Assembly (NCBI RefSeq): GCF_030388245.1
Contig: NZ_CP098363.1
Coordinates: 161,541-225,540, forward strand
DNA from: Paracoccus sp. TOH
GTDB lineage: Bacteria > Pseudomonadota > Alphaproteobacteria > Rhodobacterales > Rhodobacteraceae
DNA length: 64,000 nt
Reading direction: 5' to 3'
Within the stretch, counting starts at the first letter, position 1, and every line of letters begins with the position of its first letter. Under the pieces are notes generated by a model. That model saw only the letters and a program-made list of their open reading frames with translations. It was not told where the DNA came from and did no database searches. The position numbers and the translations under genes were made by a program. Shown piece after piece: positions 23,234 to 63,762 of the stretch.

Positions 23234-23247
23234 GGCGACCCCTCCCG

Positions 23248-26525: not shown

Positions 26526-26539
26526 GGATGCGTCTCCCC

Positions 26540-28282: not shown

Positions 28283-28291
28283 TCTGAAAAC

Positions 28292-28753: not shown

Positions 28754-28763
28754 GGGCGTGTCC

Positions 28764-40553: not shown

Positions 40554-41888
40554 TCAAAGGGGGTTCCCCCGCGCATCGAAGGTTGCGGCGGGGTGCTTGT
40601 TTGGAACTCGGACCAGCGGCAAGCCTGCCTCGATAGCCCGAAGCCGGGCTTCCTGTTCGACAAAGCGAGCGCCAACACCAGGCCACCAGGCGTCATTGCT
40701 GATATTGACGATGTATGCCCCAGCAGCGCCCCTATCAGCGCGAGAGACGGCATAGGAGCCTTCATAGCAGATTTGGGCTACGATGGTGCCGGGCAGGCCC
40801 GGAAGGGTTATGAGCGGCGATCCTGCGCCGTGTGCAATCGCATTTGGACTGGCGGCGATGGTGCTCATTCCAAAGAGGCGTTCAAGCTCTTCGGCATAGG
40901 GGATGTATTCACCAAAGGGGAAGAGCTGGCGCTTATCATATCGGGCGACCTCGTTCAGATTAGAATCCAGGATCAGGAAGCTGTTCCAGAAGCGGCCGGG
41001 TTCCGCCTCGATGGGCGTCATGATGCCCAGGGCCAGATATGCGCCTTCGGGCGGCTTTGCTGCGGCCAGCTCGGTCGTCAGCTCGTCATGAAAGAACGGC
41101 ACCGCAACTTCGGGCCAGATCACCAGCTCGGCACCGGCATCAAAGGCTGTGCGGGTGCGGCTGGTCAAATCAGCGATATAGGACGGCATCAGCGCATCGT
41201 TCCAACGCTCGGCTTGCGGGATCGCGGTGCTGATCGAGGCGATACGCGGCATTTCAGGGAGGGGCGCGGGTTTGCTGGCCCATAGGCCGAGAACCGATGC
41301 GCCCACAAAAATTGCGATGCTTGCCAGCGGCCAGCGGCGCTTCGTCATGTCGAAGGCCGCTGTCGCGCAGACCGCGATCAGGAATGTGCCCAGCAGCTCG
41401 ACGGTGATGAATCGTGAGAGCTGGACCATAGGCATCTGGGAGAGGATCGAGGCGATTTGCGCCACGGGGATCGCGGGGAAGACGTAGCTGCGCAGCAGCT
41501 CTGCAAGGCTCCACAAGACCGCAAGCAGGAAGGGTGCATAGACGCCCCGCCCGTAGCGGAACGCCAGTGCGAATGCGACCGGCCACCAGACCGACAACAA
41601 AGCATAGAGAGCGACAACGCCGATCACGGGTTTCAAGCCGGTGATGCCGATGGCGGCATAGCCGGTCAGCAAGAAGGGTAAGGCGGCTGCGAAATAGCAA
41701 AAGCCACCGATCCAGCCCACCAGTGCGGCGCTCTTGGCCGTCTTGGCCTGTGTGAACGCCAGGACGATGCACAGCAAGCCCAAGGGACCATAGGCCCATT
41801 GGCTGGCGCTGTGGACCGCGCCCCCGGCAGCGGTCCCGCCACCCATGGCGATCATGGCGATGGCGAATTGAGCCTGAACAGGCTTCAT
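40554..41888 (-). CDS. Lnt/TraB-like carbon-nitrogen hydrolase membrane protein
   Basis: A 444-residue protein with about six N-terminal membrane helices and a periplasmic nitrilase domain. The catalytic triad is readable: Glu in LVIWPEVAVPFF, Lys in YDKRQLFPFGEYIP and Cys in VAQICYEGSYAVS. Chromosomal apolipoprotein N-acyltransferase has the same plan but is longer. Conjugative Ti-like plasmids carry a shorter relative, TraB, which affects transfer efficiency. The plasmid setting favours the TraB type. The C-terminus may be slightly shortened. Confidence 0.75.
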   Translation of the reverse strand: MKPVQAQFAIAMIAMGGGTAAGGAVHSASQWAYGPLGLLCIVLAFTQAKTAKSAALVGWIGGFCYFAAALPFLLTGYAAIGITGLKPVIGVVALYALLSVWWPVAFALAFRYGRGVYAPFLLAVLWSLAELLRSYVFPAIPVAQIASILSQMPMVQLSRFITVELLGTFLIAVCATAAFDMTKRRWPLASIAIFVGASVLGLWASKPAPLPEMPRIASISTAIPQAERWNDALMPSYIADLTSRTRTAFDAGAELVIWPEVAVPFFHDELTTELAAAKPPEGAYLALGIMTPIEAEPGRFWNSFLILDSNLNEVARYDKRQLFPFGEYIPYAEELERLFGMSTIAASPNAIAHGAGSPLITLPGLPGTIVAQICYEGSYAVSRADRGAAGAYIVNISNDAWWPGVGARFVEQEARLRAIEAGLPLVRVPNKHPAATFDARGNPL

Positions 41889-41907: not shown

Positions 41908-41937
41908 TTGCAAATTGTATTTAGATTGAATTATGCT
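41908..41937 (+). promoter_or_regulatory. Candidate ssb promoter
   Basis: TTGCAA (41908-41913), 18 bases and TATGCT (41932-41937) lie in the AT-rich gap before ssb, divergent from the Lnt-like gene. Confidence 0.35.
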
Positions 41938-41987
41938 TGACCATCGGCTACCGTGCAAGTCGTCAACATAAGCAGGAGTTTCGGGGA

Positions 41988-42485
41988 ATGCTGAACATCA
42001 ATGAGGTCCGGTTGCTCGGCCGACTGGCGGATGATCCGACTTTCGGGCAGACGCCAGCTGGTCGAGACTTCATGCGGGTTCGCGTGATTACATCGCGCAG
42101 CTACCGCGACCAAAACGACCAGTGGCAGGAGGTCACTGTCGGCCACAACGTGGTGACGTTCGACAAATACCGCATCAAGCATGGCCGGGATCGGCTGCGC
42201 AAAGGCATGTTGGTCTATGTCGAGGGCGAGAACAACGAGTCCCGGCGCGAGGTTGACGGCCAGACCTTCTACAATCGCGGTGTCCTCGTTCCCATGGGCG
42301 GCAAGCTGCATTCTCTTGAGCGCGGCGAGGCGAATGACCGCGACGAGTCGCAATCCAATGAAATCGGCCGGGGTGCCGCGAGCGGCGGCAAGGCCAAGGG
42401 CAAGGGCAAGGTGCCGGATGGCCCGCCCATCGATGGCCGCAACCCCATCGATCAGCACGACTATGATGATGAGATCCCGTTCTAG
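41988..42485 (+). CDS. ssb: Single-stranded DNA-binding protein
   Basis: A 165-residue SSB. The OB-fold has NINEVRLLGRLADDPTFGQT and FMRVRVITSRSYRDQNDQWQ; a Gly/Lys-rich linker leads to the acidic protein-docking tip YDDEIPF. Start at ATG 41988 after AGGAG. The OB-fold is somewhat divergent from chromosomal SSB, usual for plasmid copies. It heads a co-directional row with topoisomerase III, SPOR protein, telomere resolvase and NrdH. Confidence 0.88.
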   Translation: MLNINEVRLLGRLADDPTFGQTPAGRDFMRVRVITSRSYRDQNDQWQEVTVGHNVVTFDKYRIKHGRDRLRKGMLVYVEGENNESRREVDGQTFYNRGVLVPMGGKLHSLERGEANDRDESQSNEIGRGAASGGKAKGKGKVPDGPPIDGRNPIDQHDYDDEIPF

Positions 42486-42559: not shown

Positions 42560-44848
42560 ATGAAATCCATCGTGCTTTGCGAAAAGCCATCCCAAGCCCG
42601 CAATGTCCAAGCGGCGGTCGGCAATCGGTTCGGCCGGGTGATCGGCCTGCGGGGCCACATCATCCGTCTGGCCGATCCCGAAGAGGTCAATCCCGATTGG
42701 GCGAAGTGGAGCTGCGAGTTGCTGCGGCCTGCATCGGGCTTCTATCCCTTTTCCGAAGACAAGTCGGGCGGAAAAGACAAGCTCCTGCGGGAAATCAAGG
42801 CCGAGCTGAAGGACGCGGATCGCGTCATCATCGCGACGGACTGTGACCGCGAGGGGCAGGCCATCGGGGAGAACCTGACGCGCTATCTCAAATTCAAGGG
42901 GCAGGTTTTCCGCGCTATGTTCAATGCGGAGGATGAGAAATCCCTGCAAGAGGCATTCGCCAACCTGCGGCCGAACAGCGAGCATCTGCGGCTCTATCAA
43001 GCCGCTGTCGCTCGTGCCCAGGTCGATCAGATCGCCAACCTTTCCGCGACCCGAGCCGCAACGGTTGCCCTGAAACCGGACGGGATGCGCGGTGCCATGG
43101 GCATGGGCCGTGTCAAAACGCCCACCATGGCTATCGTGTGCAAGCGACAGATCGAGGTCGATGGTTTTACACCGCGTCCCTATTGGGATTTGTGGTTGGA
43201 TGCGCAGCACAACGGTGAAATCGTCAGGCTGAACCACAGGCCGGGCGAGGATGCGCGGATCTTCGACAAGGCCGTAGGTGAGGCGATAGTCGCCGGGCTG
43301 CGGACATGGGCCGGGCCTTTGTCTGTCGTGAAGGAAGAGAAGCGCCAAGGCCCGCCGAAGCTGAACGACCTTCCCACGCTGCAAATCTATGCTTCGCGGT
43401 GGGGCTGGTCAGCCAAGAAGACCTTGGATGTGGCGCAGGCCCTCTATGAAACGCACAAGATCACGACCTATCCCCGTGCAGAAAACCGCTATCTGCCGGA
43501 AGTCGAGATCGGCAATGCACAGGCTATGCTGGACGGGCTGAATGCGCTGGGCAAGCTGGGCGTGAGCTACCAGACTCCGGTGATCCGTAAGGGCAAGGCT
43601 GGTCACTTTTCAGATAAAGCTCTGGAAGGGTCATCGCACCATGCCATCGTGCCCAACATCAAGACCGTCGAGGCTTGGGAGACGATCTACAATCGGTTGA
43701 GCCAGGACGAAGGCAAGCTGTTCGATCATATCGCCCGAACCTATCTGGCCGCTGTCGGGCCGGATCGCATCTATGATCGCACCGAAATATCCATGTCGAG
43801 CGAGAAGCGAAAGTTTTCGGCCGTGGGTGTGGTCGAGAAGATTGCGGGCTGGCGCGAGGCCATGGGAGCCAGCGCCGCCGAGGCCGAAGAGGATGGCGAG
43901 GAATATCCCGCCGTCCCGGCATGGCCGAACGGAGCGCAGGCCACAGCCAAGGACGCTGGTGTGGACGCGAAGATGACCAAACCGCCGTCGCTCTATACGG
44001 AAGGCTCGCTCATCAAGGCTATGCAGGAAGCCTGGCGCTTTGCGGACGATCCGGCGATGGCCGAACGCCTCAATGAGGCCAAGGGGATTGGGACGCCTGC
44101 GACACGCGACAGCATTATCGCCGGGCTTATCAAGCAGGGATATTTCATGGTGGTGAAGGGCAGGCTCAACGCTTCGCCCTTGGCGCTGGAATTCTACCGG
44201 GAGCTGATGAAGGAATGCCCGGAGTGGCTTGATCCTGCCGCGACCGCTGAAATGGAAATGGCGCTCGATGCGATCCTGCGCGGCGAGGCCGATCCTCGGC
44301 ATGTGATCGATGAAATCCTGATGAAGACGCAGCGCTTACTTGAGGCGATGAAGCGCCGATCCGAAGGAGCCGGGGCGCTCAAGGTCGATGTGAAACAGCC
44401 CCCGAGCGCAAAGATGCTGGCCGCTGCGAAGGCAAAGGCCCAGCGTGATGGTGTCAGCCTGCCGCGAGGCGCTGCTTCGGACGCGCGCATCTGCCGCGAG
44501 TTCTTGGGGCCGATGACCGAGGGTGGCGGTCCTAGCGAAAGCCAGCTGGCCTTCGCTCGCAAGATCGCCGGAGCGCTGGGTGTCACTTTGGCCGATGAGG
44601 TTCTGCAAGATCGCAAGCAGCTGTCGGCGTGGATTGATGCACACAAGGATCAGGTGCCGAAAGGTGAAGGCGATGATCGCCCCAGCTCGAAGCAGGTTGA
44701 GCTGGCCGAGAAAATCGCGGGGCAGAAGGGGATCGAGATACCCCCGGAAACCCTCAAATCGAAGTCGTCTCTCTCCAAGTGGATCGACTCGCACGGATCG
44801 AAGTCGGGCAAGGCGGCAACCGGACGGAAGCGCAAGGCTCGCGCATAA
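42560..44848 (+). CDS. topB: DNA topoisomerase III-type (type IA)
   Basis: A 762-residue type IA topoisomerase, which passes single strands and decatenates plasmid DNA. The Toprim domain carries MKSIVLCEKPSQARNVQAAV and ATDCDREGQAIGENLTR (acidic metal site, about residues 92-105). The catalytic Tyr is in TTYPRAENRYLPE near residue 304. No zinc fingers follow; two repeated C-terminal basic modules (KIAGALGVTLADEVLQDRKQ and KIAGQKGIEIPPETLKSK) look like small DNA-binding domains ending in a Lys-rich tail. Plasmid TopB genes near ssb are common. Confidence 0.92.
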   Translation: MKSIVLCEKPSQARNVQAAVGNRFGRVIGLRGHIIRLADPEEVNPDWAKWSCELLRPASGFYPFSEDKSGGKDKLLREIKAELKDADRVIIATDCDREGQAIGENLTRYLKFKGQVFRAMFNAEDEKSLQEAFANLRPNSEHLRLYQAAVARAQVDQIANLSATRAATVALKPDGMRGAMGMGRVKTPTMAIVCKRQIEVDGFTPRPYWDLWLDAQHNGEIVRLNHRPGEDARIFDKAVGEAIVAGLRTWAGPLSVVKEEKRQGPPKLNDLPTLQIYASRWGWSAKKTLDVAQALYETHKITTYPRAENRYLPEVEIGNAQAMLDGLNALGKLGVSYQTPVIRKGKAGHFSDKALEGSSHHAIVPNIKTVEAWETIYNRLSQDEGKLFDHIARTYLAAVGPDRIYDRTEISMSSEKRKFSAVGVVEKIAGWREAMGASAAEAEEDGEEYPAVPAWPNGAQATAKDAGVDAKMTKPPSLYTEGSLIKAMQEAWRFADDPAMAERLNEAKGIGTPATRDSIIAGLIKQGYFMVVKGRLNASPLALEFYRELMKECPEWLDPAATAEMEMALDAILRGEADPRHVIDEILMKTQRLLEAMKRRSEGAGALKVDVKQPPSAKMLAAAKAKAQRDGVSLPRGAASDARICREFLGPMTEGGGPSESQLAFARKIAGALGVTLADEVLQDRKQLSAWIDAHKDQVPKGEGDDRPSSKQVELAEKIAGQKGIEIPPETLKSKSSLSKWIDSHGSKSGKAATGRKRKARA

Positions 44849-44883
44849 GCGCGGACCTTAATCACAAAGGAAAGGATGACGCG

Positions 44884-45267
44884 GTGAGATCGAAGCTGAT
44901 ACTGGCGGTTGCGACTGTTGCGGCCCTGGGGGCCGCTCCGGCCGTGGCGCAGGACATGGAATGGGACACGCTGCCGGAGCCTCGGCACCTTTCACGGGTG
45001 CTGGATGTGCATGTCTTCCTTGGACAGGCCGGGCAGCAGGCTTCGGCCGGTGCCCGCTATGTCCAGGTTGGGGCTTTCCGGCGTCAGGAAAGCGCAGAAG
45101 GGCAGATCGAGCGTATTCGCTCTGTGGGGCTTGAAGCTCGTTTGGGGCGTCAAGGTTCCTGGAACCTCGTCTTGATGCCGGAGACAGAGCGCAACACAGC
45201 TGAAGTGCTTGCGGGATGGGCGCGGCGGTCGGGATACCCAGATGCCTTCATTCGGGTGATTAGGTAA
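44884..45267 (+). CDS. SPOR-domain periplasmic protein
   Basis: A 127-residue exported protein from a GTG start after AAAGGAAAGGA. The signal peptide is ILAVATVAALGAAPAVAQ. The C-terminal part is a SPOR-like fold (ARYVQVGAFRRQESAEGQIE, RIRSVGLEARLGRQGSWNLV). SPOR domains bind denuded septal peptidoglycan. Why one belongs to a replication-type gene row is not clear. The stop is inside an inverted repeat that may end this transcript. Confidence 0.75.
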   Translation: MRSKLILAVATVAALGAAPAVAQDMEWDTLPEPRHLSRVLDVHVFLGQAGQQASAGARYVQVGAFRRQESAEGQIERIRSVGLEARLGRQGSWNLVLMPETERNTAEVLAGWARRSGYPDAFIRVIR

Positions 45268-45355
45268 AAATAATGTTTACCTTGGAAACAGCTTGCCAGC
45301 AGGCTTGCCCTGTTTTATATATACCTAAACAAACCCGACAGGAGTTGAGGTATAT
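45261..45355. promoter_or_regulatory. Control region of the telomere resolvase gene
   Basis: AGGTAAA (45262-45268) and TTTACCT (45276-45282) are inverted around 7 bases. ATATACCT (45319-45326) and AGGTATAT (45348-45355) form a second inverted pair, the last arm covering the start codon. The same AGGTAWA words form the repeat series at 63763-63991, so one plasmid protein may bind both. Confidence 0.5.
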
Positions 45356-46457
45356 GGCTCGCTATCCCCTTACCAAGAAGATCGATGAATTCGCGCACCA
45401 GGTTGCCTTGATGGTCGGCCAGCATGGCTGGCAGGGGCGGCTCACGGCGGCTTGGAATACCAAGCGCGAAGAATTCTCGGATAAGGCCCTTGGGTCGCAA
45501 AAGCTCTACATCGTGAAGTTTCGCGCAGGCATCAAAGAGTGGTTCGAGTCGCTTGACGAGGGCGACGAGCGCCGCGATCTGGAAGGCCGCGTTCTGGCGA
45601 TCATCACCTTTCCCGAGGGTATGATCGAGACGCTGAACCGGGATTACACCAAGGCGGTGAAGTCCCGCGCCGAGAACCTTGTTCTGTGCCCCAACCCGGA
45701 GCAGATGGTTGCGGCATTTGTCGAGTGGCTGGACAGCACTGATGTGCGCCAGAAGGCGTTGGGCGTCATGGGGCTTACCGGGCGGCGCTTTATTGAGGTC
45801 GTGCGTGATGGCGAGTTCACGCCGGTTGTCGAGCAGATCAAGAAAGGGCGCGTTCGTCTGAAATATGTGCTCGAATTCACCGGCCAAGCAAAGACGCGCG
45901 GTGCCGAGGGCACCATGCACGGCGCGACCTATCGCATCCCGGTCATTCCGAACGGGAAGGTGGACACAGTTCCGCTGATCCTCAAGGCGATGGAAGAAAT
46001 CCGGGAATCCAAGCTGGGGCAGCGCTGGCAGGGGTTTGACTACCGTGATCTGAATTCCGGTGAGAGCGGCCGGTTCAACGCGCAGCTGCGCGGTTCCCTT
46101 TCCAATATCGAAGGAATGACAGAAGAGCTGCTGGACAAGCTCTCGGTCAAATGGCTTCGCGCCCTCTATGCCGAGCTGGCATATGCGCGGTTCGGTTCGC
46201 TGCGCCGCACGAAGTCGGCGTTCTTCGCCCAGATCCTCGGGCATGGCGAGGACGATCTGAAAACCTCACTTTCCTACATGGTGCTGGCCCTTGGGAACGA
46301 CCAATCCGAGCACGAGAAGGCCAAAGCCGAGGTTCAACGCCTTCTGGATGCCGTGAAGGCGAGGACCGCCGAAGAGCGGGCTGCGAAGCGAGCCGCTGGT
46401 GTGATGGTGGCCGACGACGACGACGATGTTGTGATTGAAAATGACGACATGGATTGA
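45354..46457 (+). CDS. telA: Telomere resolvase (protelomerase), TelA-like
   Basis: A 367-residue protein clearly related to Agrobacterium TelA, which makes hairpin ends from replicated telomere palindromes. Catalytic residues all match: R144 in GLTGRRFIEV, K180 in FTGQAKTRGAEGT, R269 in KWLRALYAELAY, H297 in FFAQILGHGEDD and nucleophile Y308 in TSLSYMVLAL. The N-terminal part (KKIDEFAHQVALM, then LYIVKFRAGIKEWF) matches TelA's N-terminal module, present once here, so the protein is shorter than TelA (442). The tail is acidic. Start ATG 45354 follows CAGGAG. Substrate site not found in the window. Confidence 0.85.
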   Translation: MARYPLTKKIDEFAHQVALMVGQHGWQGRLTAAWNTKREEFSDKALGSQKLYIVKFRAGIKEWFESLDEGDERRDLEGRVLAIITFPEGMIETLNRDYTKAVKSRAENLVLCPNPEQMVAAFVEWLDSTDVRQKALGVMGLTGRRFIEVVRDGEFTPVVEQIKKGRVRLKYVLEFTGQAKTRGAEGTMHGATYRIPVIPNGKVDTVPLILKAMEEIRESKLGQRWQGFDYRDLNSGESGRFNAQLRGSLSNIEGMTEELLDKLSVKWLRALYAELAYARFGSLRRTKSAFFAQILGHGEDDLKTSLSYMVLALGNDQSEHEKAKAEVQRLLDAVKARTAEERAAKRAAGVMVADDDDDVVIENDDMD

Positions 46458-46467
46458 GGGACATGAA

Positions 46468-46704
46468 ATGACTGTGACAGTTTATACCAAGCCAGGCTGT
46501 GTCCAATGCACGGCCACAACAAAAGCCTTGGATGCAAAGGGCATTCCCTACGAGCTGATTGATCTGGTCGAGGACGCGGAGGCTTATGCCTTTGTGGAGA
46601 CGCTGGGCTATCGGCAAGCCCCGGTGGTGGTTGCCGATGACGAGCATTGGGCGGGCTTCCGGCCGGATCGGATCGGGGCGCTTGCGGTCGATCCGCGAGA
46701 ATAG
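46468..46704 (+). CDS. nrdH: Glutaredoxin-like protein NrdH
   Basis: A 78-residue thioredoxin-fold electron donor: MTVTVYTKPGCVQCTATTKA with the CVQC redox site, GIPYELIDLVEDAEAYAFVE, and YRQAPVVVADDEHWAGFRPD, the NrdH signature end. It normally reduces class Ib ribonucleotide reductase; no nrd genes are nearby, so it may serve the host enzyme or another thiol target. It starts 10 bases after telA in the same direction. Confidence 0.88.
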   Translation: MTVTVYTKPGCVQCTATTKALDAKGIPYELIDLVEDAEAYAFVETLGYRQAPVVVADDEHWAGFRPDRIGALAVDPRE

Positions 46705-46719: not shown

Positions 46720-47025
46720 ATGGCACAGGCTGACAGATGCCCCGAGGCGAGGGTTTTCTTTGACCGGCATATCCTGTCGGTCATGATCGACGGGGAAGCG
46801 CCATTCGGGCGCTGTGAGACGTTCTACAGGCTTCAACACTTCACCACGGAGTGGATGCCGCGAGAGGTTGCCAGAGGCTTCCTGCGCGATCTGACGCAGC
46901 GAGGATACTGCCAATACCGCAATGGCCTATTCACCGAGGATGGCGAAGTCGCCGGATCGGGCTATGGGGTCACGGAACGCGGCGTGGACTATTATCGGGA
47001 AATTTCGGCCCCTTCGGCCATCTGA
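46720..47025 (+). CDS. Hypothetical protein, possibly winged-helix-like
   Basis: A 101-residue protein. HFTTEWMPREVARGFLRDLT, QRGYCQYRNGLFTEDGEVAG and YGVTERGVDYYRE suggest a small winged-helix pattern (helices then a beta wing), but I do not recognise a family. It lies between nrdH and the relaxase-like gene, all co-directional and closely spaced. Confidence 0.55.
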   Translation: MAQADRCPEARVFFDRHILSVMIDGEAPFGRCETFYRLQHFTTEWMPREVARGFLRDLTQRGYCQYRNGLFTEDGEVAGSGYGVTERGVDYYREISAPSAI

Positions 47026-47039
47026 CACAGGAGGGAGCC

Positions 47040-48416
47040 ATGCTGCTTCGCTTTGATGACATTCCGCGTGATGCGGCAAGGGTTGAAGATACCGGGTTCC
47101 TGGATAGACAGAACAACCCGCGCGTAGTCGAGTTGATTGGCCGGTTGCCAGCGGTCGAGGCCGCTTTCAAGAAGACCGGCTCCAAGGCCGTCCAGGCGGC
47201 GATACAGGGCCAGCCTCGCGCTCTGGCCGGTGCTATCGTGTTCGCCGGTCGCGAGCCAGATGATGATGTGTTCCTGCGGCGCATAGCGGAGCGCTGGGAG
47301 GCGGATTTTTTCCCAGATTTTGCGCGGCATGAGCACTATGAGATCGTCTGGCAGCATCTGAATTGGGGGGCGGGACACGAATTGCGGTTCCTGCTGCCTT
47401 TGTGGAACAAGGCCGAGCAGGCAGCTCTGCCCCTGCCAAAGGTGATGATCGACAAGGCAGCGCTCTGGACGCGGGTGCAGGCCCTTACGTTCGATCTGCA
47501 AGACCCGATGCCTCGGCACCGGGCTGGTATCCGACCCAGCTTCCAGCTGGCCGACAGGGGCGCGAACAAAGGGCTGCGCCCGGCGCTGACCACCTTTGTC
47601 GAAGACGCTGTTATGGCGGGCGAGCTGCGTTCGCGGGGCGATGTGATTGCCGACCTGGGGAAGATCGGTTTCGAGCTGGTCAAGGCGGAACCCCAAGCGC
47701 TCACGGTTCGATATGTTGGTGACGACGCCGAGCTTGCGGCGAAAGCGCGACGGCCGGTCGTTCTGACGGGACCGGCATTCAGTGATGGATTCGGCCAGAT
47801 CGATGATCCGAAGATCCTCTTGATCGAGGAAGCGGCCAGACAGGGCGCAAAGCGTGTCAGGGATGAGGTTCAGGCCCAGATCGAGGGTTTGCAGCCCGCG
47901 ATCTCCAAGGCCGTGGAACAGGCGCTTGATGCTCGCGCCAGCGATGCCGTGAAGGCGACGGACAAGCAGATGAACGCGCTCTTGGAGGGCTTTGTAAAGA
48001 AGGCCAGCGATGCAGCTGCGGTTCAGAACGCGGAGCTGGAGTTCGCCTCGGGAGAAACCTCGAAGTCGGTCGAGGCAGCTCGCAGAACCATCAGCGGATT
48101 TCTGACAGATTTTCAGAAGGTGGCTACCGAGACGAAAGACGTGTTGGTGAAGGGTGCCGAACGCGATCTGCATGATACGGTCGAGGTCGTGAAGGTGTTC
48201 ACGCGCGAGGTTGCCGCGTCCAAGGCCCAGTTAGACGATCTGACAGCCCAAAAGGATGCGCAGATCAGGAAGCTGACCTTCGGCCTGGTCGGGGCTGGTG
48301 TTGTCGCTCTCCTGCTCCTGGTGCCCACCCTCTATTTCTCAATCGGTGGCGCTGGGATGGTTGCACAGGTCCGGTCGGCCGCTGCCGAGATCGAAAACGA
48401 AAAGGCCCAGTATCAA
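47040..48416 (+). pseudogene. Relaxase-like membrane protein, 5' part (split by transposon block)
   Basis: About 459 residues from ATG 47040 (after AGGAGGG). Text around RHEHYEIVWQHLNWGAGHEL, WTRVQALTFDLQDPMPRHR and ELRSRGDVIADLGKIGFELV follows MOBP-type relaxases, but the first 70 residues contain no Tyr and the HELHF motif reads HELRF, so nicking is doubtful. A long coiled coil and a membrane helix (FGLVGAGVVALLLLVPTLYF) follow. At TATCAA (48411-48416) the frame is broken by the IS block. The rest lies at 57351-57614 and rejoins in frame. The truncated form would end PTFPK. Confidence 0.6.
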
Positions 48417-49917
48417 CCCACATTTCCCAAGTAAGGCGCTGATTTCGCTGTCCTGACCATTATATTTCCTATATAAAACATGGTGTTGAAGGCTGCGAGG
48501 GGCGCGTTTCATGGATCACCCAGAGGGTGCGGGCTTGCAACGGGCAGATCGGGTGGATTTCGACCCTCGCGTGCGGCTGGAATTTCGCGGCACGCAGCTC
48601 AGTTCCGACGGCGGCCTTCTGGTGATGCGCGAGCTTGATGACGCGCTCGGGTTGTCCGATTTGGCGTCAGCGGCGCTGCGCGATACTCGCTCTGGCAAGA
48701 ACACGGTCCATCGGCTCGACGGCCTGTTCCGGCAATCAGTCTTTGGGCGGCTGGCCGGATACGAGGATGTCAACGACGCCAACCGTCTCGCCTGCGATCC
48801 GGTCATGCGCCAAGTTGTCGGCGGCAGAGCGGTCGATGCACAAGCGGCCTCGGCATCGCAGATGGGACGGTTCGAGACCGAGACGCTGGCTCTGGCCGGG
48901 AACCGTGCCGCGCTGGCCGACCTGAACGGGCAATGGATCGACCGGTTCCATGACCGTAACGGGCTGAAGTACATCGTTCTGGACATGGACAGCTCGGTCA
49001 GCCCGACCCATGGCGACCAGGAAGGGTCCGCCTGGAATGGCCATTTCGACTGTAGCTGCTATCACCCCAACTTTCTGTTCAACCAGTTCGGGATGCTGGA
49101 ACGCTGCGCCCTGCGCCATGGCAACGTCCACAGCGCCGATGGCTGGCGTGATGTTCTCGACCCCGTCATTGCGCGCTACGCGGAGCGCGACCTTGGTGGC
49201 AGGTTCTTCCGGGCCGATGCTGCCTACGCGATCCCGGCGATCTATGAGCGATTGGAAGAAGCGCGGTTCTTCTACGCCATCCGGCTGCCCGCAAACGCGG
49301 TCCTCAAGGACAAGATCGCGCATCGGCTAACGCGCCCTGTCGGGCGGCCGTCACTGACCAAGGTCAAGCGGTTCTTCGAGGAATTCGAGTATCAGGCGGC
49401 GTCCTGGGACAAGGAACGCCGGGTGATCGCCAAGATCGAATGGCATCCGGGCGAACTGTTCCCGCGTGTCGGCTTCATCGTCACCAACCTGCCGATGGAG
49501 CCGGACTGGGTGGTGCGGTTCTACAACCAGCGCGGCACCGCCGAGCAGCACATCAAAGAGGGCAAATACGCCTTTCGCTGGACGCGGCTGTCGTGCCGGA
49601 AGTTCCGCGACAATGAGGTGCGGCTGCAACTGCACGCCCTGGCGTACAACCTGGCCACCTTCTTGCACTGCATCGAGCTGCCCGAGGCCATGGCCGACTG
49701 GTCGTTGACCAGCCTGCAACTGAAGCTGATCAAGATCGGGGCACGTGTGGTCCGTCACGCCCGCACCATCACCTTCCAGCTGGCCGAGGTCGCTGTCACC
49801 GGCACGATGGTACGCGCCATCCTCGCCGCTATCCGCCGATTGCGAGCGCCACCGCTATGCGCATGATCGCGATCCACGCTCAAACTGAACGAAAGCGGCT
49901 GGACAGATCTGTCCGCT
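48417..49917 (+). mobile_element. IS1380-family insertion sequence, copy 1
   Basis: A 1501-base block identical to 54241-55741 in the same orientation. Terminal inverted repeats could not be defined by eye. The right end carries the palindrome GGACAGATCTGTCC. The left end supplies the last codons and stop (PTFPK) now read by the relaxase-like gene. Confidence 0.8.
48511..49866 (+). CDS. IS1380-family transposase, copy 1
   Basis: A 451-residue DDE transposase: LEFRGTQLSSDGGLLVMREL is the typical N-terminus; YIVLDMDSSVSPTHGDQEGS and GRFFRADAAYAIPAIYERLE hold two acidic catalytic residues, and NQRGTAEQHIKEGKYAFRWT the third (Glu in the IS1380/IS4-type Y-x2-R-G-x2-E-like motif). The same protein is encoded at 54335-55690. 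It is full length and probably active. Confidence 0.93.
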   Translation: MDHPEGAGLQRADRVDFDPRVRLEFRGTQLSSDGGLLVMRELDDALGLSDLASAALRDTRSGKNTVHRLDGLFRQSVFGRLAGYEDVNDANRLACDPVMRQVVGGRAVDAQAASASQMGRFETETLALAGNRAALADLNGQWIDRFHDRNGLKYIVLDMDSSVSPTHGDQEGSAWNGHFDCSCYHPNFLFNQFGMLERCALRHGNVHSADGWRDVLDPVIARYAERDLGGRFFRADAAYAIPAIYERLEEARFFYAIRLPANAVLKDKIAHRLTRPVGRPSLTKVKRFFEEFEYQAASWDKERRVIAKIEWHPGELFPRVGFIVTNLPMEPDWVVRFYNQRGTAEQHIKEGKYAFRWTRLSCRKFRDNEVRLQLHALAYNLATFLHCIELPEAMADWSLTSLQLKLIKIGARVVRHARTITFQLAEVAVTGTMVRAILAAIRRLRAPPLCA

Positions 49918-50649
49918 CAGCCAGGTGATCATGCGCGTGGTGAAGCTTTCCAGCCGCGCCAGTTTCAGCGCCTGCCTGTCCTGCACGCGCAGCAGAAGCG
50001 CGCGGCGGGGGGCCAGATCATCGGGCTGTGCGGGCGGCGTCCAGATCAGCATCTGGCCGTCCTGCGGGCCACGCATCATCATCGGGCCGCTGCGCAACAG
50101 ACGCGCCCGCATCTCTTCCGAGCCATGGGTCAGCAGGTGGCGCGCGTAAAGCGGGTCGCAAAAGCGCAGATAGAACCACTCGCCCTGTTCATCGCAGAGC
50201 CGCGTTAGCTTGCGCAGATGGGCGCGCACCTCTTGCAGGGGCAGGGGCGAGCGCAGGAACACCCCCGCCTCGGCATCCCACAGGTCGCGATGCGCATCGC
50301 CCCGGGTGAAAAGGCTGCGGGTGAAGTCATTGCCCTCGGCCAGTTCCACCAGCCAGGGCGCGGTATCGGCCAGATCCTCGGCCGTGGTGCCGTCAAACAG
50401 GCAGGCGTGCGGCAGGCCGGATTGGCGCAGGCGCTCGGGCAGGAAGCGGATGCGGGCGGCGTCGAGCAGCGCAAAGCTGCGCTGAGCCGGATCGCCAAAG
50501 AGCCATGGATGCAGGGCGTCAGGGACCGTCGGGCGGGGCCAGACCCCGATCTGCCGCGCCAGAGGCTGAACCCCTTCAAGGGTGGTTTTCTGCGGCGCGG
50601 ATCGCGGCTGGGGATCGTCAGAGACTGGCAATAACCACGGATCGAACAT
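49918..50649 (-). pseudogene. DUF4123 protein (type VI secretion adaptor), 3' truncated
   Basis: DUF4123 proteins escort type VI secretion effectors onto VgrG. The readable domain has MFDPWLLPV, HPWLFGDPAQRSFALLDAAR, FLPERLRQSGLPHACLFDG and WLVELAEGNDFTRSLFTRG, then FYLRFCDPLYARHLL. IS1380 copy 1 cuts the gene at 49917 after TTRMITWLS; a false extension runs into the IS. No vgrG or effector gene is in the block, so the fragment records where the segment came from. The start could be ATG 50649 or slightly upstream. Confidence 0.72.
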
Positions 50650-50763
50650 AGGCGGCACCGGCTGAAAAACTGGCGTCACTATGGCGTTCAAGCTGTTGAA
50701 TGACCAGCCCGAAGCGATGTGACGCGGGGAAAACTCCGGCACTCGGGAGGCGAGAATTTAGCG

Positions 50764-50788
50764 CCGAGGGGGCGGCTTGCCCCCTCGG
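50764..50788. terminator. Strong hairpin between APC permease and DUF4123 gene
   Basis: CCGAGGGGGC (50764-50773), loop GGCTT, GCCCCCTCGG (50779-50788): a perfect 10-bp stem just downstream of the permease gene on the minus strand. Confidence 0.7.
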
Positions 50789-50807
50789 TCCAGATCAGTT
50801 GCGGGTA

Positions 50808-52274
50808 TCAGTTGCGGGTGGAGTCGCCGTGATGCGCGGCCAGATCCTCGACATTCTCAAGATAGCCCGCCGCATGGCGGTGGCTCGCGCGGTTCCAGAT
50901 CCAGGTCACCACCCACAGCACGACACCGACCGCCAGCAGCCATCCGGCAATGCGGTACTGCTCCATCTGCGCGGCGCTGCGCGCCCAGGGCCCGGCCAGA
51001 AAGGCGCAGGTCAGCGCGCCGATCCAGGGCAGGATGCCGGGGGTGCGGAAATGCTCATGCGAGACCGGCTGACGGCGCAGCACCAGCAGCGCGATGTTCA
51101 CCACCGTGAAGACGCACAGCAACAGCAGCGCGGTCGTGCCACCCAGAAGGCTGATCGCCGGGGTCTCGGAGCGGGTGACCACGAAATAGATCAGCCCGAA
51201 GGCCAGAGCCGTGGTGAAGGCGATCGAGACATAGGGCGTGCGCCGCGTCGGATGCACAAGGCCAAGCCCATGCGGCAGGACCCGCTGCCGCGCCAGCCCG
51301 TAAAGCAACCGGCTGGCCATCAGCATATTGATCAGCGCCGAGTTCGCCACTGCGAACATGCCGATGAAGGGGAAGATCTTGTCGAAGGGGAAGTTCGGTG
51401 CCCCGGCCCGCACCACCTGCGTCAACGCCGATCCTTTGCTCGGGTCCGAGAGATCGCCCACCGGCACCAGCGCCACCGCGCAGATCGAGACCAGCACATA
51501 GATGACCCCGGTGACGCCCAGCCCGGTCAACATGATCTTCGGGAAGATCCGGACGGGGTCCTTGACCTCCTCGGCCATGTTCACCGAATCTTCGAACCCG
51601 ACCATGGCGAAGAAGGCCAGCGCCGTGGCGGCGGTCAGGGCCAGAAAGGCGCCCTTGTCCTCGGAAGATTTGAAGACCATCACCTCGGAGAAATCGGCGC
51701 GGCCCTGGCTCATGGCGTAAAAGCCGATCATGATGATCATCAGAAGGCCCGAAAGCTCGACGCAGGTCAGCACGACGTTGGCCTTGACGCTTTCGCCGAC
51801 GCCCCGGAAGTTGATGATCGCGACCAGCGCCATGAAGCCCAAAGCGATGGTCAGGATGCCGGTGCCGCCCGCCTGAAAGCCCAGGTGGAAGCCGTCGTTC
51901 ACGAAGCCCGCAAAGGCGTTCGACGCGGTCGAGGCTGAGGTGATGCCCGAGCACATGACGGTGAAGGCGACCAGAAAGGTCAGGAAGTGGATGCCGAAGG
52001 CGCGATGCGTGTAAAGCGCAGCGCCTGCGGCCTGTGGGTATTTGGTGACCAGCTCCAGATATGAGAGCGCGGTGATCGTGGCCACCAGAAAGGCGATCAG
52101 GAACGGAGCCCATGCCGCGCCGCCGACCTCGCCCGCGACGGTGCCGGTCAGGGCATAGACCCCGGTTCCCAGAATGTCTCCGATGATGAAAAGCAGAAGT
52201 AGCTTCGGGCCCATGACCCGGTGCAGTTCCGGTTGTGCTGGCACCGATCCGGTTGCCGGCTGCGTTCCCGCCAT
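50808..52274 (-). CDS. APC-family amino acid permease
   Basis: A 488-residue transporter with 12 to 14 membrane helices. Typical APC text: KLLLLFIIGDILGTGVYALT (helix 1 with the unwound GTG), EVGGAAWAPFLIAFLVATIT, SYLELVTKYPQAAGAALYTH and GFEDSVNMAEEVKDPVRIFP. Substrate is most likely a cationic or neutral amino acid, not decidable by eye. It is part of the transposon block and has its own hairpin terminator. Confidence 0.88.
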   Translation of the reverse strand: MAGTQPATGSVPAQPELHRVMGPKLLLLFIIGDILGTGVYALTGTVAGEVGGAAWAPFLIAFLVATITALSYLELVTKYPQAAGAALYTHRAFGIHFLTFLVAFTVMCSGITSASTASNAFAGFVNDGFHLGFQAGGTGILTIALGFMALVAIINFRGVGESVKANVVLTCVELSGLLMIIMIGFYAMSQGRADFSEVMVFKSSEDKGAFLALTAATALAFFAMVGFEDSVNMAEEVKDPVRIFPKIMLTGLGVTGVIYVLVSICAVALVPVGDLSDPSKGSALTQVVRAGAPNFPFDKIFPFIGMFAVANSALINMLMASRLLYGLARQRVLPHGLGLVHPTRRTPYVSIAFTTALAFGLIYFVVTRSETPAISLLGGTTALLLLCVFTVVNIALLVLRRQPVSHEHFRTPGILPWIGALTCAFLAGPWARSAAQMEQYRIAGWLLAVGVVLWVVTWIWNRASHRHAAGYLENVEDLAAHHGDSTRN

Positions 52275-52500
52275 GTCGGTTCCTCCCTCTTGGCGTTCAC
52301 AATGGAGTTATTGTGCGAGCCATGGGGCAATCCGCGCAAGGATCATGGCGCAGCATAGGCAATCACGCGCATGGGGCGGATGCGGGGCCGTTCCGGTGCT
52401 TTGGCATTAAATCTGCCGACTACAGTAGATTATCGGAAAGTTCTCGAAACAACCTGAGGTACGGGCGTCGAGCCGCTGCGGGGCCTCCCGCAGCGGTCGA

Positions 52501-54018
52501 TCACATTCCGGGCTGCTGCGACGAGGCCGAATTGAGCGCCGCGACGGGCTTTCCGCTGCGTTTCCAGACGATCAGCGACGCCGCCAGAAGCATCACGATG
52601 GCGGCGAAAGTCACCCAGACGAAGGCGTGATCGAAGGCGAGCCGTGCGTATTGAAGAAGCTCGGCCGCCTGATCGGCGGGCAGGGTCTCGGCGTGGATCA
52701 TCGCCTCATCCAGACTGTCGCGCGCGGCGGCGCTGAGCGGGACCGAGTCCGGCACATGCAGGAAGAAGGTGTAGAGCGCCGAGAACAGGCTGCCGAGGAT
52801 CGCCACGCCAAGCGCACCCCCCAGCTCATAGGAGACCTCCTCGACCGAGGCGGCCATGCCTGCGCGATCCTCGGGTGCCGACAGCATGATGGCGCTGGAG
52901 GCGGCGGTCATGCAGGCCCCGATGGCGAAGCCCATCACCGCCAGCGCGCCCAGCCAGATCGCGGCCGCGGCTTGATAGCTGAGAAGATAGCCCGCAAGCC
53001 CCAGTCCGGCGACCAGAAGCGTCAGCCAGATCATCCGCTCGGTCCCCAGACGCGACAGCATTAGCCCGGCAATCGGACCGGCAAAGAAGGCCGCCAGCGG
53101 CAGGGGCAGGTTCAACAGCCCCGCGTAAAGCGGCGAATGCCCCAGCACCAGCTGCATGCGTTGGGTAAAGACCAACTCGAACCCGATCAGCGTGCCCGCG
53201 GCGACCAGCGCCGCAATCACCCCCGCCGTGAAGCGCGGAATGGCGAACAGCGAAAAGTCGATCAGGGGATGGGCGCTGGCCAGCTGTCTGCGGACGAACA
53301 GCACCATGGCGATCAGGCCGATGGCGAAGACCAGCGCGGCCTCACCCCAGGCGGGATCGCGTTTGGCGATTTCCTTGATCGCATAGACCAGCCCGACCAG
53401 ACCCACCATCACCTGCAATGAGCCGATGAGGTCCCAGGGCCGGTCCTTCACCCCCTCGCGATAGGGCAGCAGCAGAGGCACCAGCACCAGCGCGACCAGC
53501 ACCACCGGCACGTTGATCAGGAAGACCGAGCCCCACCAGAAATACTCCAGAAGGATGCCGCCGATCACCGGCCCGATGGCCGCGCCGCCCGAGGCGACGG
53601 CCGCCCAGATGCCGATGGCGAAGGCGCGCTCATCCTCATCGGTGAAGGTCAGGCGGATCAGTGACAATGTGGCGGGCATCATCATTGCCGCGCCCACGGC
53701 CATCGCCACCCGCGCGCCGATCAGCGCCTGCGGCGACCAGGCAAAGGCCGCCATGGTCGAGGCCAAGCCGAAGACCGCCAGCCCCAGCATGAACATCCGG
53801 CGGTGGCCGAAGCGGTCGCCCAGCGTGCCCAAGCCCGGCAGCAGGCCCGCGACGACCAGAGGATAGGCGTTCACGATCCACAGCTTCTGGTTCGCCGTCG
53901 CGCCCAGATCATGCGTCAGCCGAGGCAGCGCCGTGTAAAGCACCGTCATGTCGATGACGATGAGGAACAGGGCGCTTGAGATGACGGCAAGGGCCAACCA
54001 GCGGTTGCGAGCGGGCAT
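52501..54018 (-). CDS. MFS drug exporter, DHA2 family (SmvA/QacA-like)
   Basis: A 505-residue 14-helix proton-driven exporter. Motif D1-like VIDMTVLYTALPRLTHDLGA lies in helix 1, motif A GTLGDRFGHRRMFMLGLAVF follows, and motif C is GAAIGPVIGGILLEYFWWG. SmvA and QacA export cationic biocides and dyes. A divergent TetR gene (54102) shares the promoter region but is cut by IS1380 copy 2, so the exporter may be expressed without its repressor. Confidence 0.9.
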   Translation of the reverse strand: MPARNRWLALAVISSALFLIVIDMTVLYTALPRLTHDLGATANQKLWIVNAYPLVVAGLLPGLGTLGDRFGHRRMFMLGLAVFGLASTMAAFAWSPQALIGARVAMAVGAAMMMPATLSLIRLTFTDEDERAFAIGIWAAVASGGAAIGPVIGGILLEYFWWGSVFLINVPVVLVALVLVPLLLPYREGVKDRPWDLIGSLQVMVGLVGLVYAIKEIAKRDPAWGEAALVFAIGLIAMVLFVRRQLASAHPLIDFSLFAIPRFTAGVIAALVAAGTLIGFELVFTQRMQLVLGHSPLYAGLLNLPLPLAAFFAGPIAGLMLSRLGTERMIWLTLLVAGLGLAGYLLSYQAAAAIWLGALAVMGFAIGACMTAASSAIMLSAPEDRAGMAASVEEVSYELGGALGVAILGSLFSALYTFFLHVPDSVPLSAAARDSLDEAMIHAETLPADQAAELLQYARLAFDHAFVWVTFAAIVMLLAASLIVWKRSGKPVAALNSASSQQPGM

Positions 54019-54046
54019 CGGGACCTCATGAAGTGAAGAAGCGGCT

Positions 54047-54086
54047 TTGACAAACTTGCGGAAAGGAATAAATACGCCCGTACTGA
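54047..54086 (+). promoter_or_regulatory. Promoter/operator between exporter and tetR fragment
   Basis: TTGACA (54047-54052), 16 bases and TAAATA (54069-54074) face the TetR gene. The stretch AATACGCCCGTACT just beyond has TACG/CGTA symmetry and is a candidate TetR operator. Confidence 0.4.
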
Positions 54087-54101
54087 AATGGAAGGGTGAA
54101 A

Positions 54102-54240
54102 ATGTCGGGACGTCCCAGAACGATCGACCGCGACAAGGTGCTGGACGCGGCCGAGGCGATTGTCAGCCGTGTCGGAGCCTCGGGTCTGACCTTCGAGGCA
54201 GTGGCGCGCGCCGCCGGGATCACCAAGGGCGGCGTCCAAT
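54102..54240 (+). pseudogene. TetR-family repressor, N-terminal fragment
   Basis: The first 46 residues are a TetR DNA-binding domain: GRPRTIDRDKVLDAAEAIVS, FEAVARAAGITKGGVQ. IS1380 copy 2 begins at 54241 and removes the rest of the HTH and the ligand domain. It is divergent from the DHA2 exporter and probably was its repressor. Confidence 0.8.
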
Positions 54241-55741
54241 CCCACATTTCCCAAGTAAGGCGCTGATTTCGCTGTCCTGACCATTATATTTCCTATATAA
54301 AACATGGTGTTGAAGGCTGCGAGGGGCGCGTTTCATGGATCACCCAGAGGGTGCGGGCTTGCAACGGGCAGATCGGGTGGATTTCGACCCTCGCGTGCGG
54401 CTGGAATTTCGCGGCACGCAGCTCAGTTCCGACGGCGGCCTTCTGGTGATGCGCGAGCTTGATGACGCGCTCGGGTTGTCCGATTTGGCGTCAGCGGCGC
54501 TGCGCGATACTCGCTCTGGCAAGAACACGGTCCATCGGCTCGACGGCCTGTTCCGGCAATCAGTCTTTGGGCGGCTGGCCGGATACGAGGATGTCAACGA
54601 CGCCAACCGTCTCGCCTGCGATCCGGTCATGCGCCAAGTTGTCGGCGGCAGAGCGGTCGATGCACAAGCGGCCTCGGCATCGCAGATGGGACGGTTCGAG
54701 ACCGAGACGCTGGCTCTGGCCGGGAACCGTGCCGCGCTGGCCGACCTGAACGGGCAATGGATCGACCGGTTCCATGACCGTAACGGGCTGAAGTACATCG
54801 TTCTGGACATGGACAGCTCGGTCAGCCCGACCCATGGCGACCAGGAAGGGTCCGCCTGGAATGGCCATTTCGACTGTAGCTGCTATCACCCCAACTTTCT
54901 GTTCAACCAGTTCGGGATGCTGGAACGCTGCGCCCTGCGCCATGGCAACGTCCACAGCGCCGATGGCTGGCGTGATGTTCTCGACCCCGTCATTGCGCGC
55001 TACGCGGAGCGCGACCTTGGTGGCAGGTTCTTCCGGGCCGATGCTGCCTACGCGATCCCGGCGATCTATGAGCGATTGGAAGAAGCGCGGTTCTTCTACG
55101 CCATCCGGCTGCCCGCAAACGCGGTCCTCAAGGACAAGATCGCGCATCGGCTAACGCGCCCTGTCGGGCGGCCGTCACTGACCAAGGTCAAGCGGTTCTT
55201 CGAGGAATTCGAGTATCAGGCGGCGTCCTGGGACAAGGAACGCCGGGTGATCGCCAAGATCGAATGGCATCCGGGCGAACTGTTCCCGCGTGTCGGCTTC
55301 ATCGTCACCAACCTGCCGATGGAGCCGGACTGGGTGGTGCGGTTCTACAACCAGCGCGGCACCGCCGAGCAGCACATCAAAGAGGGCAAATACGCCTTTC
55401 GCTGGACGCGGCTGTCGTGCCGGAAGTTCCGCGACAATGAGGTGCGGCTGCAACTGCACGCCCTGGCGTACAACCTGGCCACCTTCTTGCACTGCATCGA
55501 GCTGCCCGAGGCCATGGCCGACTGGTCGTTGACCAGCCTGCAACTGAAGCTGATCAAGATCGGGGCACGTGTGGTCCGTCACGCCCGCACCATCACCTTC
55601 CAGCTGGCCGAGGTCGCTGTCACCGGCACGATGGTACGCGCCATCCTCGCCGCTATCCGCCGATTGCGAGCGCCACCGCTATGCGCATGATCGCGATCCA
55701 CGCTCAAACTGAACGAAAGCGGCTGGACAGATCTGTCCGCT
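54241..55741 (+). mobile_element. IS1380-family insertion sequence, copy 2
   Basis: Same 1501 bases and orientation as copy 1 (offset 5824). Flanks differ from those of copy 1 (CAAT left, GCGC right) and show no clear target duplication. Confidence 0.8.
54335..55690 (+). CDS. IS1380-family transposase, copy 2
   Basis: A 451-residue transposase with the same protein sequence as copy 1 (48511-49866), including the DDE-type acidic positions. Two identical copies in direct orientation can recombine to delete the exporter genes between them, or move them together. The gene disrupts a tetR reading frame through its IS. Confidence 0.93.
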   Translation: MDHPEGAGLQRADRVDFDPRVRLEFRGTQLSSDGGLLVMRELDDALGLSDLASAALRDTRSGKNTVHRLDGLFRQSVFGRLAGYEDVNDANRLACDPVMRQVVGGRAVDAQAASASQMGRFETETLALAGNRAALADLNGQWIDRFHDRNGLKYIVLDMDSSVSPTHGDQEGSAWNGHFDCSCYHPNFLFNQFGMLERCALRHGNVHSADGWRDVLDPVIARYAERDLGGRFFRADAAYAIPAIYERLEEARFFYAIRLPANAVLKDKIAHRLTRPVGRPSLTKVKRFFEEFEYQAASWDKERRVIAKIEWHPGELFPRVGFIVTNLPMEPDWVVRFYNQRGTAEQHIKEGKYAFRWTRLSCRKFRDNEVRLQLHALAYNLATFLHCIELPEAMADWSLTSLQLKLIKIGARVVRHARTITFQLAEVAVTGTMVRAILAAIRRLRAPPLCA

Positions 55742-55919
55742 GCGCTGAAAAACGCCGCCCCTGGGCAAGGAAACAGCGGCTTCGCGGTCTGATCCGTCCA
55801 GATCCAGCAGTCTGCGCGACCGCAGGTGCCGCTTGCGGCAGAAAATCCTTGTCTAGCGCTCGGATACAGGCGATCTTCACCTCAAACGACACGCCACTTG
55901 GGGAATGCAGGAGAAGATC

Positions 55920-56621
55920 ATGAGCCAGACGCAACCGATCGAAGTCTTCTACTTTCCGACCCCGAACGGGAAGAAGATCACCATCATGCTGGAGGAGCTG
56001 GGCGTTCCCTATCATGTGAACCCGGTTCACATCGGCAGGGGCGACCAGTTCAAGCCGGAATACCTCGAGATCTCGCCCAACAACAAGATCCCCGCCATCC
56101 TCGACCCGGAGGGGCCGGACGGCAAGCCGGTGTCGATTTTCGAATCGGGCGCCATCCTGCAGTATCTTGCCGGGAAGTTCGGCCGCTTCCACGGCAGGGA
56201 CCACCGGGCCCGGATCAAGGTCGATCAGTGGCTGTTCTGGCAGGTGGCGGGGTTCGGCCCGCTGCTGGGGCAGAACTATTTCTTTGCCAAGGATGCGCCG
56301 GAAAAAATTCCCTATGCCATCGAGCGCTACCGCAAGGAAACCCGCCGGCTCTACGGTGTCCTGAACCGGCAGCTGGACGGACGCGACCATATCGCCGACG
56401 AATTCAGCATCGCCGACATCGCCGTGATCGACTGGTCGCTTTACTGGGACGACCTGGGCGTGGACCCGGCCGAGTTCCCCAATGTGGCGGCATGGCAGAA
56501 GCGGATGCAGGCGCGCCCCGGCGTCGCGCGCGGGCTGGCGGTCAAGCTTCCGGACGGCGATGCGCCCGATATCGAGAACGAGGAGGCCCGCAGGATCCTG
56601 TATGGGCAGAGCTCGCGCTGA
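55920..56621 (+). CDS. Glutathione S-transferase (YfcG/GstB-like)
   Basis: A 233-residue GST: the thioredoxin-like N-domain has VFYFPTPNGKKITIMLEELG, VPYHVNPVHIGRGDQFKPEY and NNKIPAILDPEGPDGKPVSI, with the ESGAILQYLAGKF glutathione-binding corner; the helical C-domain ends in DIAVIDWSLYWDDLGVDP and NVAAWQKRMQARPGVARG. The Asn in TPNGKK suggests disulfide-bond reductase activity, as in YfcG. ATG 55920 follows AGGAGA. The 178 bases before it hold no gene. Confidence 0.9.
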   Translation: MSQTQPIEVFYFPTPNGKKITIMLEELGVPYHVNPVHIGRGDQFKPEYLEISPNNKIPAILDPEGPDGKPVSIFESGAILQYLAGKFGRFHGRDHRARIKVDQWLFWQVAGFGPLLGQNYFFAKDAPEKIPYAIERYRKETRRLYGVLNRQLDGRDHIADEFSIADIAVIDWSLYWDDLGVDPAEFPNVAAWQKRMQARPGVARGLAVKLPDGDAPDIENEEARRILYGQSSR

Positions 56622-56691
56622 CGGCAAGGCGAGGGCATGGTGCGGTCGGCCCCGCATGGGCCTCCGCCTCCGGCCCCCGATGCGGCTTCCC

Positions 56692-56707
56692 GCCCGCCCC
56701 GGCGGGC
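56692..56707 (+). terminator. Hairpin after gst
   Basis: GCCCGC-CCCG-GCGGGC in a GC-rich stretch 70 bases past the gst stop. No T-run, so only a possible terminator. Confidence 0.35.
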
Positions 56708-56756
56708 GCGGCGGCGGCTTGCCCCCTCGGCAGGCGCGGTGAGATAAGACCGAAGC

Positions 56757-61329: not shown

Positions 61330-61337
61330 GAGACTTT

Positions 61338-63747: not shown

Positions 63748-63762
63748 GCTGGTTACTCCATT

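Follow-up and report, generated by a model that had tools for sequence, protein, structure and literature searches.

The described systems closest to the one analysed here are the telomere resolvase TelA of Agrobacterium, the linear plasmids of Rhizobiaceae, plasmid pS26_106 of Phaeobacter piscinae (deposited as linear) and the N15-like phages phiHAP-1 and VP882. The Rhizobiaceae linear plasmids carry a telomere resolvase and a topoisomerase I, their hairpin ends were established by long reads, and the six replicons that the study identified by database search carry dot/icm transfer genes (PMC13293297). The authors of this 2025 report call them the first linear plasmids in Alphaproteobacteria; a linear plasmid had been named earlier for Roseobacter litoralis OCh149, without word on its ends or on a resolvase (PMC4103551). 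Here we analyse telA1, a telomere resolvase gene of Paracoccus sp. TOH. The 4.5-Mb genome consists of five contigs (C1 to C5), and telA1 lies on C4 (NZ_CP098363.1, 225,540 bp), at 45354-46457 on the + strand of the window, which is the whole stretch analysed: the last 64 kb at the right end of C4 (C4:161541-225540). Positions without the prefix C4 are those of the window. Paracoccus belongs to the Rhodobacterales, an order noted for its many plasmids.

Unlike TelA, the telA1 protein is plasmid-borne. C4 resembles the Rhizobiaceae linear plasmids in carrying a resolvase, a topoisomerase and dot/icm-type genes; it differs from them in bacterial order and resolvase lineage. With pS26_106 it shares a colinear backbone and the same terminal and promoter motif. 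The pS26_106 protelomerase falls in the same 23-row tree group (99/99) as the telA1 protein but is only 36% identical to it and has two N-terminal modules, and pS26_106 has an inverted repeat near both ends, whereas none was seen in C4. The OCh149 plasmid, from the Roseobacter group, is linear (PMC4103551), as is the proposed form of C4; no Roseobacter record was among our plasmid matches, and whether this plasmid is in the searched collection was not checked. The protelomerases of phiHAP-1 and VP882 are 25.7% and 28.2% identical to the telA1 protein over part of its length, and phiHAP-1 has an annotated repeat just upstream of its protelomerase gene, there on a phage. In the openly licensed literature we found neither a Rhodobacterales plasmid with a telomere resolvase nor a report of a word common to a telomere and a resolvase promoter, and the accessible part of the Rhizobiaceae report mentions no such motif (PMC13293297). 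Our analysis points to both: a word common to a plasmid end and a resolvase promoter, and resolvase-type linear plasmids in Rhodobacterales.

The explanation we favour, with a probability of roughly two in three, is that the telA1 resolvase maintains a linear replicon, that one word is common to a subtelomeric array and the resolvase promoter, and that C4 is a composite.

The telA1 protein and its relatives

The telA1 reading frame at 45354-46457 is confirmed and encodes 367 aa plus stop. ATG 45354 is likely its start, because relatives open with MARYPL and an AGGAG, spotted by eye, sits just upstream. The alternative frame from 45273 (394 aa) is disfavoured since it would cross the promoter motif described below. 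The product comprises one N-terminal module, a catalytic domain and an acidic C-terminal tail.

Profile, catalytic residues, predicted fold and tree all identify the product as a telomere resolvase, whose activity would be that of its family. It matches Pfam ResT-TelK_cat (PF16684; E 9.8e-32, 110.4 bits, cut-off 27), and no match to Phage_integrase was found in the Pfam search at E<=1. Among proteins of solved structure, TelA is the closest in sequence (E 8.7e-31). The predicted fold contains the N-core and the catalytic domain, and residues 1-325 of the model superpose on TelA 125-417. As the alignment begins at TelA 125, the TelA domain 1-106 has no counterpart in the telA1 protein. An ordinary tyrosine integrase is rejected by profile, predicted fold and tree; a Pfam match to CheZ (E 0.0041, below the cut-off) we take as spurious. 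An earlier note on this DNA, which had proposed a TelA-type telomere resolvase on a plasmid-like segment with one N-terminal module against two in TelA, and had suggested the profile search and the structure prediction against TelA, is thereby borne out. Its list of hosts (Borrelia, Agrobacterium and N15-like phages) was too narrow: resolvases are also on record for cyanobacterial plasmids and, in PMC13293297, for Rhizobiaceae linear plasmids.

The active site of TelA comprises R255, K286, Y363, R366, H394 and Y405 (PMC3558466), and the alignment places R145, K180, K266, R269, H297 and Y308 of the telA1 protein at these positions. All but K266 are invariant in 30 of 30 aligned proteins. K180, R269, H297 and Y308 had been named in the earlier note, which gave R144 for the catalytic arginine; this is the neighbouring R145 in TGRR. 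The position of TelA Y363 is a lysine (K266) in the telA1 protein; lysine there is described as common in topoisomerases and tyrosine as unique to TelA (PMC3558466). The acidic tail (46391-46454, DDDD..VIENDDMD) is conserved across the single-module clade defined below, with a shorter form in the pS26 type; by analogy with SSB, it could be a protein-contact tip.

A database search with the telA1 protein returned 29 proteins at E<=0.001, 14 of them 65-92% identical. Of these 14, only the protein from uncultured Tateyamaria is assigned to a named organism, and we take the remaining 13 to be mostly metagenomic. The tree has 42 rows, and long branches (ResT, phiHAP-1 and others) make its deep order unsure. 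Named members of the 23-row group are all Rhodobacterales by NCBI lineage, with Tateyamaria labelled Roseobacteraceae. Inside this group the telA1 protein is placed in a 13-row clade (100/99) of single-module proteins, 354-371 aa long. Beside this clade, an unresolved fork holds an 8-row group of 430-534 aa, which includes Phaeobacter pS26_106 and Aliiroseovarius, together with the Pseudogemmobacter and Neomegalonema resolvases. The single-module clade lacks the autoinhibitory N-terminal domain of TelA, and its members would be natural resolvases without the part that TelA workers had to delete.

C4 carries a second resolvase gene, telA2 (C4:77236-78339), 76% identical to telA1, and both reading frames are open. 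In the tree telA1 falls with P0001 and Tateyamaria and telA2 with P0006 and P0012; the pair is therefore not a recent duplication. A resolvase was found in 1 of 125 genomes of the genus (this one, with two copies) and in 3 of 394 of the family, this one included, a rarity that fits a mobile element. Among genome contigs, a first scan with one sequence as query found no resolvase relative, and one with the alignment yielded 13 loci from 45 pattern matches. Viral contigs gave no resolvase relative, by single protein or by alignment, and no array. The Xanthobacter, Eremiobacterota and FW021 relatives each have two separate resolvase matches on one contig.

A word common to resolvase promoters and plasmid ends

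The last 240 bp of C4 (63760-64000, + strand) hold about six direct repeats (kTAGGTAwAyATGCrG), a candidate telomere-proximal array. The window contains five matches to the core word AGGTAWAYAT, against 0.04 expected (0 of 100 shuffles reach five): two lie within 95 bp before telA1 and three in the end array. Across the whole of C4 there is a sixth, upstream of telA2, and all six fall in resolvase promoters or at the right end. The motif patterns used here were derived from the sites themselves, and their weight lies in where the matches fall and in other plasmids.

Upstream of telA1 the word is part of a 21-bp dyad of two inverted half-sites (45262-45282), which matches AGGTAWWTATNATAWWTACCT; with 2 mismatches allowed, this pattern, built from the telA1 dyad itself and its homologues, has one match in 64 kb (0.00 expected). 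A third half-site, AGGTATATAT, lies on the - strand at 45317-45326, 27 bp before the telA1 start. The telA2 gene and the Tateyamaria resolvase gene are preceded by similar dyads, and in all three cases, telA1 included, a further half-site lies nearer the gene. A paired-motif pattern has 2 matches in the 4.5-Mb genome, one at the telA1 promoter and one in the end array (control pattern: 0), and a single match in Tateyamaria, at the resolvase promoter; in G022, Pseudogemmobacter and Aliiroseovarius it has none. As a cleavage palindrome the dyad is disfavoured by its odd centre and 1-bp spacing. A scan of 45150-45400 found no sigma-70 sites (0.2 expected) and one terminator-like site, at 45298.

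The array adjoins g186 (63385-63792, - strand), which encodes a small Cys-rich protein. Both pS26_106 and an Aliiroseovarius contig have a homologue of its middle part on the same strand, at a distance of about 3 kb from their right ends, and the Tateyamaria contig has homologues of g186 and g184 at its end. The array and the adjacent g186 at C4's right end fit a telomere-proximal region; we read this end as a telomere region and AGGTAwAyAT as a site common to telomere and resolvase promoter.

Related replicons show comparable arrangements. In pS26_106, AGGTAWACATAT has three matches, all of them near the two ends or about 55 bp before the protelomerase gene, with the same orientation relative to the ends as in C4; the ends carry a 148-bp inverted repeat (95%) that starts 66 bp in at the left end. 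In Aliiroseovarius (3.7 Mb), exact AGGTAWACATAT has 3 matches, all on a 101-kb contig, close to both ends and before the resolvase; with one mismatch there are 10, one on the same contig near its right end and nine elsewhere. These two plasmids are close kin and are counted as one lineage. The outermost 127 bp at the right tip of the Aliiroseovarius contig equal a chromosomal stretch, which resembles a chimeric join of k-mer length formed at the end of a plasmid. At the left end, the first 133 bp match another chromosomal stretch at 98%. Because they match the chromosome, the tips are treated as assembly artefacts, inside which the inverted repeat begins.

In Microvirga (5.2 Mb), a different word, WTTTAATTAAAD, has 9 matches (5 sites; control 0), none of them outside the contig with the resolvase: each end has two sites, in terminal repeats, and one site precedes the resolvase. 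The Eremiobacterota case is weaker. CTTGCAGTA has one match in 20 kb, before an apparent two-gene unit (judged by eye) with the resolvase as its last gene, and one match in 20 kb is likewise reached in 4 of 100 shuffles; three further matches lie in the left 1.5 kb of the contig. Six relatives were tested for a common word (Microvirga, Eremiobacterota, Xanthobacter, Mesorhizobium, Pseudogemmobacter and FW021), and together with C4, where it occurs at one end only, and the pS26 type, such a word is present in four of eight lineages: C4, the pS26 type, Microvirga and Eremiobacterota.

Of eight relative contigs tested, those of Xanthobacter, Eremiobacterota, Microvirga and Aliiroseovarius have inverted end repeats. 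The Mesorhizobium contig and the Eremiobacterota contig each open with a perfect palindrome, of 86 bp and 40 bp respectively. The latter is centred on TCATGA, the same six bases as in the target of TelA (PMC3558466). Rhizobium oryzihabitans p5 (NZ_CP048637.1) has a 70-bp perfect palindrome at position 8058 with annotated genes mirrored on both sides, although the mirror is not exact (ungapped identity of 57% over 100 bp, at chance level further out); the record gives the impression that the assembly continued past a hairpin end. Shinella p2_Teo12, deposited as circular, has three protelomerase matches and, at L037:6843, an imperfect palindrome with 22-bp arms where Rhizobium p5 has the perfect one; this plasmid may be linear and have been circularized in assembly. 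Paroceanicella profunda pD4M1D, also deposited as circular, has a resolvase fragment at the start of the record, and 49 bp from the right end of the record recur exactly, in inverted orientation, 417 bp in from the left end.

The form of C4 and the role of the array

We propose the following mechanism. As in the rest of its family, the telA1 resolvase would act as a dimer, cut a palindromic replicated telomere junction via Y308 and reseal each half as a hairpin, so that the replicon stays linear. The replicon would belong to a family of linear plasmids with a resolvase, a topoisomerase, ssb, lnt, dot/icm-type transfer and a strawberry-notch helicase, which would also include Phaeobacter pS26_106, and C4's right end would be the telomere-proximal end of one such plasmid. 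The AGGTAwAyAT sites of the subtelomeric array and those of the resolvase promoter may be bound by one protein, for which the resolvase itself is the simplest candidate and a separate regulator the alternative; with one protein on both sites, resolvase synthesis would be tuned to its substrate. C4 itself would have three parts: on the left a pS26-like backbone that carries telA2, then a middle part of transposon-rich and VirB-type conjugative DNA, and on the right a telomeric arm that carries telA1 and derives from a second such plasmid.

C4 is read as probably linear with a hairpin at its right end. The linear replicon with hairpin ends suggested in the earlier note stands as likely on the strength of the mirror-image and hairpin-like ends of related replicons and of the array at C4's right end; it finds no such backing at the left end, where no telomere feature was seen.

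Several observations weigh against this reading. The motif and telomere features were not found at the left end of C4, which begins inside a reading frame; its first 700 bp recur nowhere else in the genome, and the first 37 codons have no plasmid match. The two ends of C4 show no overlap or inverted repeat with each other, nor with the ends of C1, C2, C3 and C5. A search of C4 for long palindromes (even centres only, mismatches scored) found only three, all GC-rich and imperfect and all more than 2.5 kb away from the resolvase genes and the contig ends. The palindrome of 40-60 bases that the earlier note had suggested looking for was not found on C4, although a contig stopping at a hairpin would contain none. 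The half-sites of the promoter dyad, 1 bp apart, are unlike a resolvase target with its 6-bp core. TelA Y201 and R205, which are needed for hairpin formation, align in a weakly aligned stretch with I91 and N95 of the telA1 protein. Genome-wide, TAGGTAWAWATGCRG (15 bases, <=2 mismatches) has 11 matches against 9 for the reversed control; four have <=1 mismatch and all lie in the array, and seven have two mismatches, one in the telA2 promoter and six elsewhere. With a total so close to that of the control, only the matches with <=1 mismatch are informative. Looser AGGTAWAYAT matches occur once more inside a pS26_106 gene. Xanthobacter, Mesorhizobium and Pseudogemmobacter show no word common to ends and promoter, and the words shared by end and promoter in FW021 are only GC-rich, recur in the locus and were not counted.

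Some of these observations would also be expected if the resolvase were real but C4 were now circular, a linear plasmid having been fused into a circular replicon by insertion sequences, with the array as a relic. The lack of an inverted end repeat and of a telomere feature at the left end suits such a fusion, as do the wealth of transposases, a 9,087-bp segment duplicated at 99.97% identity, and the presence of a VirB-type transfer region and a MobA relaxase. Against it, the array occupies the last 240 bp of the contig, a placement shared with two plasmids whose ends are mirror images, and both resolvase frames are open; in addition, though this is weak, cumulative GC skew declines over about the first 60 kb and climbs over the rest of C4 (with a small dip at 110-120 kb). 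We consider a circular C4 unlikely.

The array also lies directly upstream of g186, with its first repeat just before the gene, so that it could be a promoter array. It might then be only a multi-site operator for g186, not telomeric, whose regulator also controls the resolvase. In pS26_106 and Aliiroseovarius, however, the word sits in the end inverted repeats, about 3 kb from the g186 homologue, and in Microvirga it sits in both terminal repeats, which makes an operator for g186 alone improbable. That the telA1 product is a Cre-like site-specific recombinase or dimer resolver instead of a hairpin maker is more improbable still, even though it belongs to the same superfamily, lacks the N-terminal domain by which TelA keeps side reactions in check (PMC11271964), and has I91 and N95 at the aligned positions of TelA Y201 and R205.

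The common word gives a direct and cheap prediction on how telomere resolvases find and regulate their substrate, and offers a route, from sequence only, to linear replicons hidden in draft assemblies. More tentatively, and with the odds against it, the subtelomeric repeat may double as resolvase operator in several linear-plasmid lineages, each with its own word, so that free telomeres would titrate the resolvase and thereby set its synthesis, a bacterial telomere-counting feedback; the telA1 clade's loss of the domain that in TelA restrains hairpin fusion could have let two linear plasmids fuse into the chimeric C4 with its two resolvases.

Composition of C4 and gene neighbourhood

Our reading of C4 is that it combines two related plasmids of linear type with other DNA. 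Two of its blocks, at about 61.8-82.5 kb and 198.2-219.4 kb of C4, are colinear with approximately 69-78% identity piece by piece, and each contains lnt, ssb, a topoisomerase, a SPOR protein and a resolvase. A simple in-house caller predicted 187 genes on C4, 46 of which have matches in pS26_106, with one transposase accounting for 6 of the 46. Between 15.7 kb and 59 kb of C4, order and strand are as in pS26_106, that transposase apart, and this stretch includes the dot/icm-type genes and the strawberry-notch helicase.

Around telA1, an lnt-like gene (40554-41888, - strand; PF20154/PF00795) is a conserved resolvase neighbour whose homologue adjoins the pS26_106 protelomerase. It is followed on the + strand by ssb (41937-42485; PF00436, 1.9e-15), a type IA topoisomerase gene (42560-44848; PF01131, 3.1e-80) and, between topoisomerase and resolvase, a gene for a SPOR-domain protein (44785-45267; PF05036, 3.2e-6) that is kept beside telA2 and in the relative locus L042. 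A topoisomerase homologue lies upstream of the resolvase also at L042, L044 and L006/L105. Directly 3' of telA1, also on the + strand, is an NrdH-like glutaredoxin gene (46435-46704; PF00462, 2.4e-15), whose DNA matches annotated nrdH, followed by a gene for a 527-aa protein with no Pfam match (46851-48434), 57% identical to a copy after telA2 (C4:79989-81542). Further right, a pair encoding dienelactone-hydrolase-like and FadL-like proteins (60319-62498, + strand) is common to pS26_106, with 57% and 40% identity.

Pfam scans of 48 C4 proteins found no phage structural families. The window also contains a MobA/L relaxase-helicase gene (8842-11955) and the VirB-type transfer region (19881-30770), both distinct from the dot/icm-type genes in the left half of C4. 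The duplicated 9,087-bp segment lies at 48404-57490 and at C4:91912-100998, with near-identical 451-aa transposases; C4 has five near-identical copies of this transposase and one diverged sixth.
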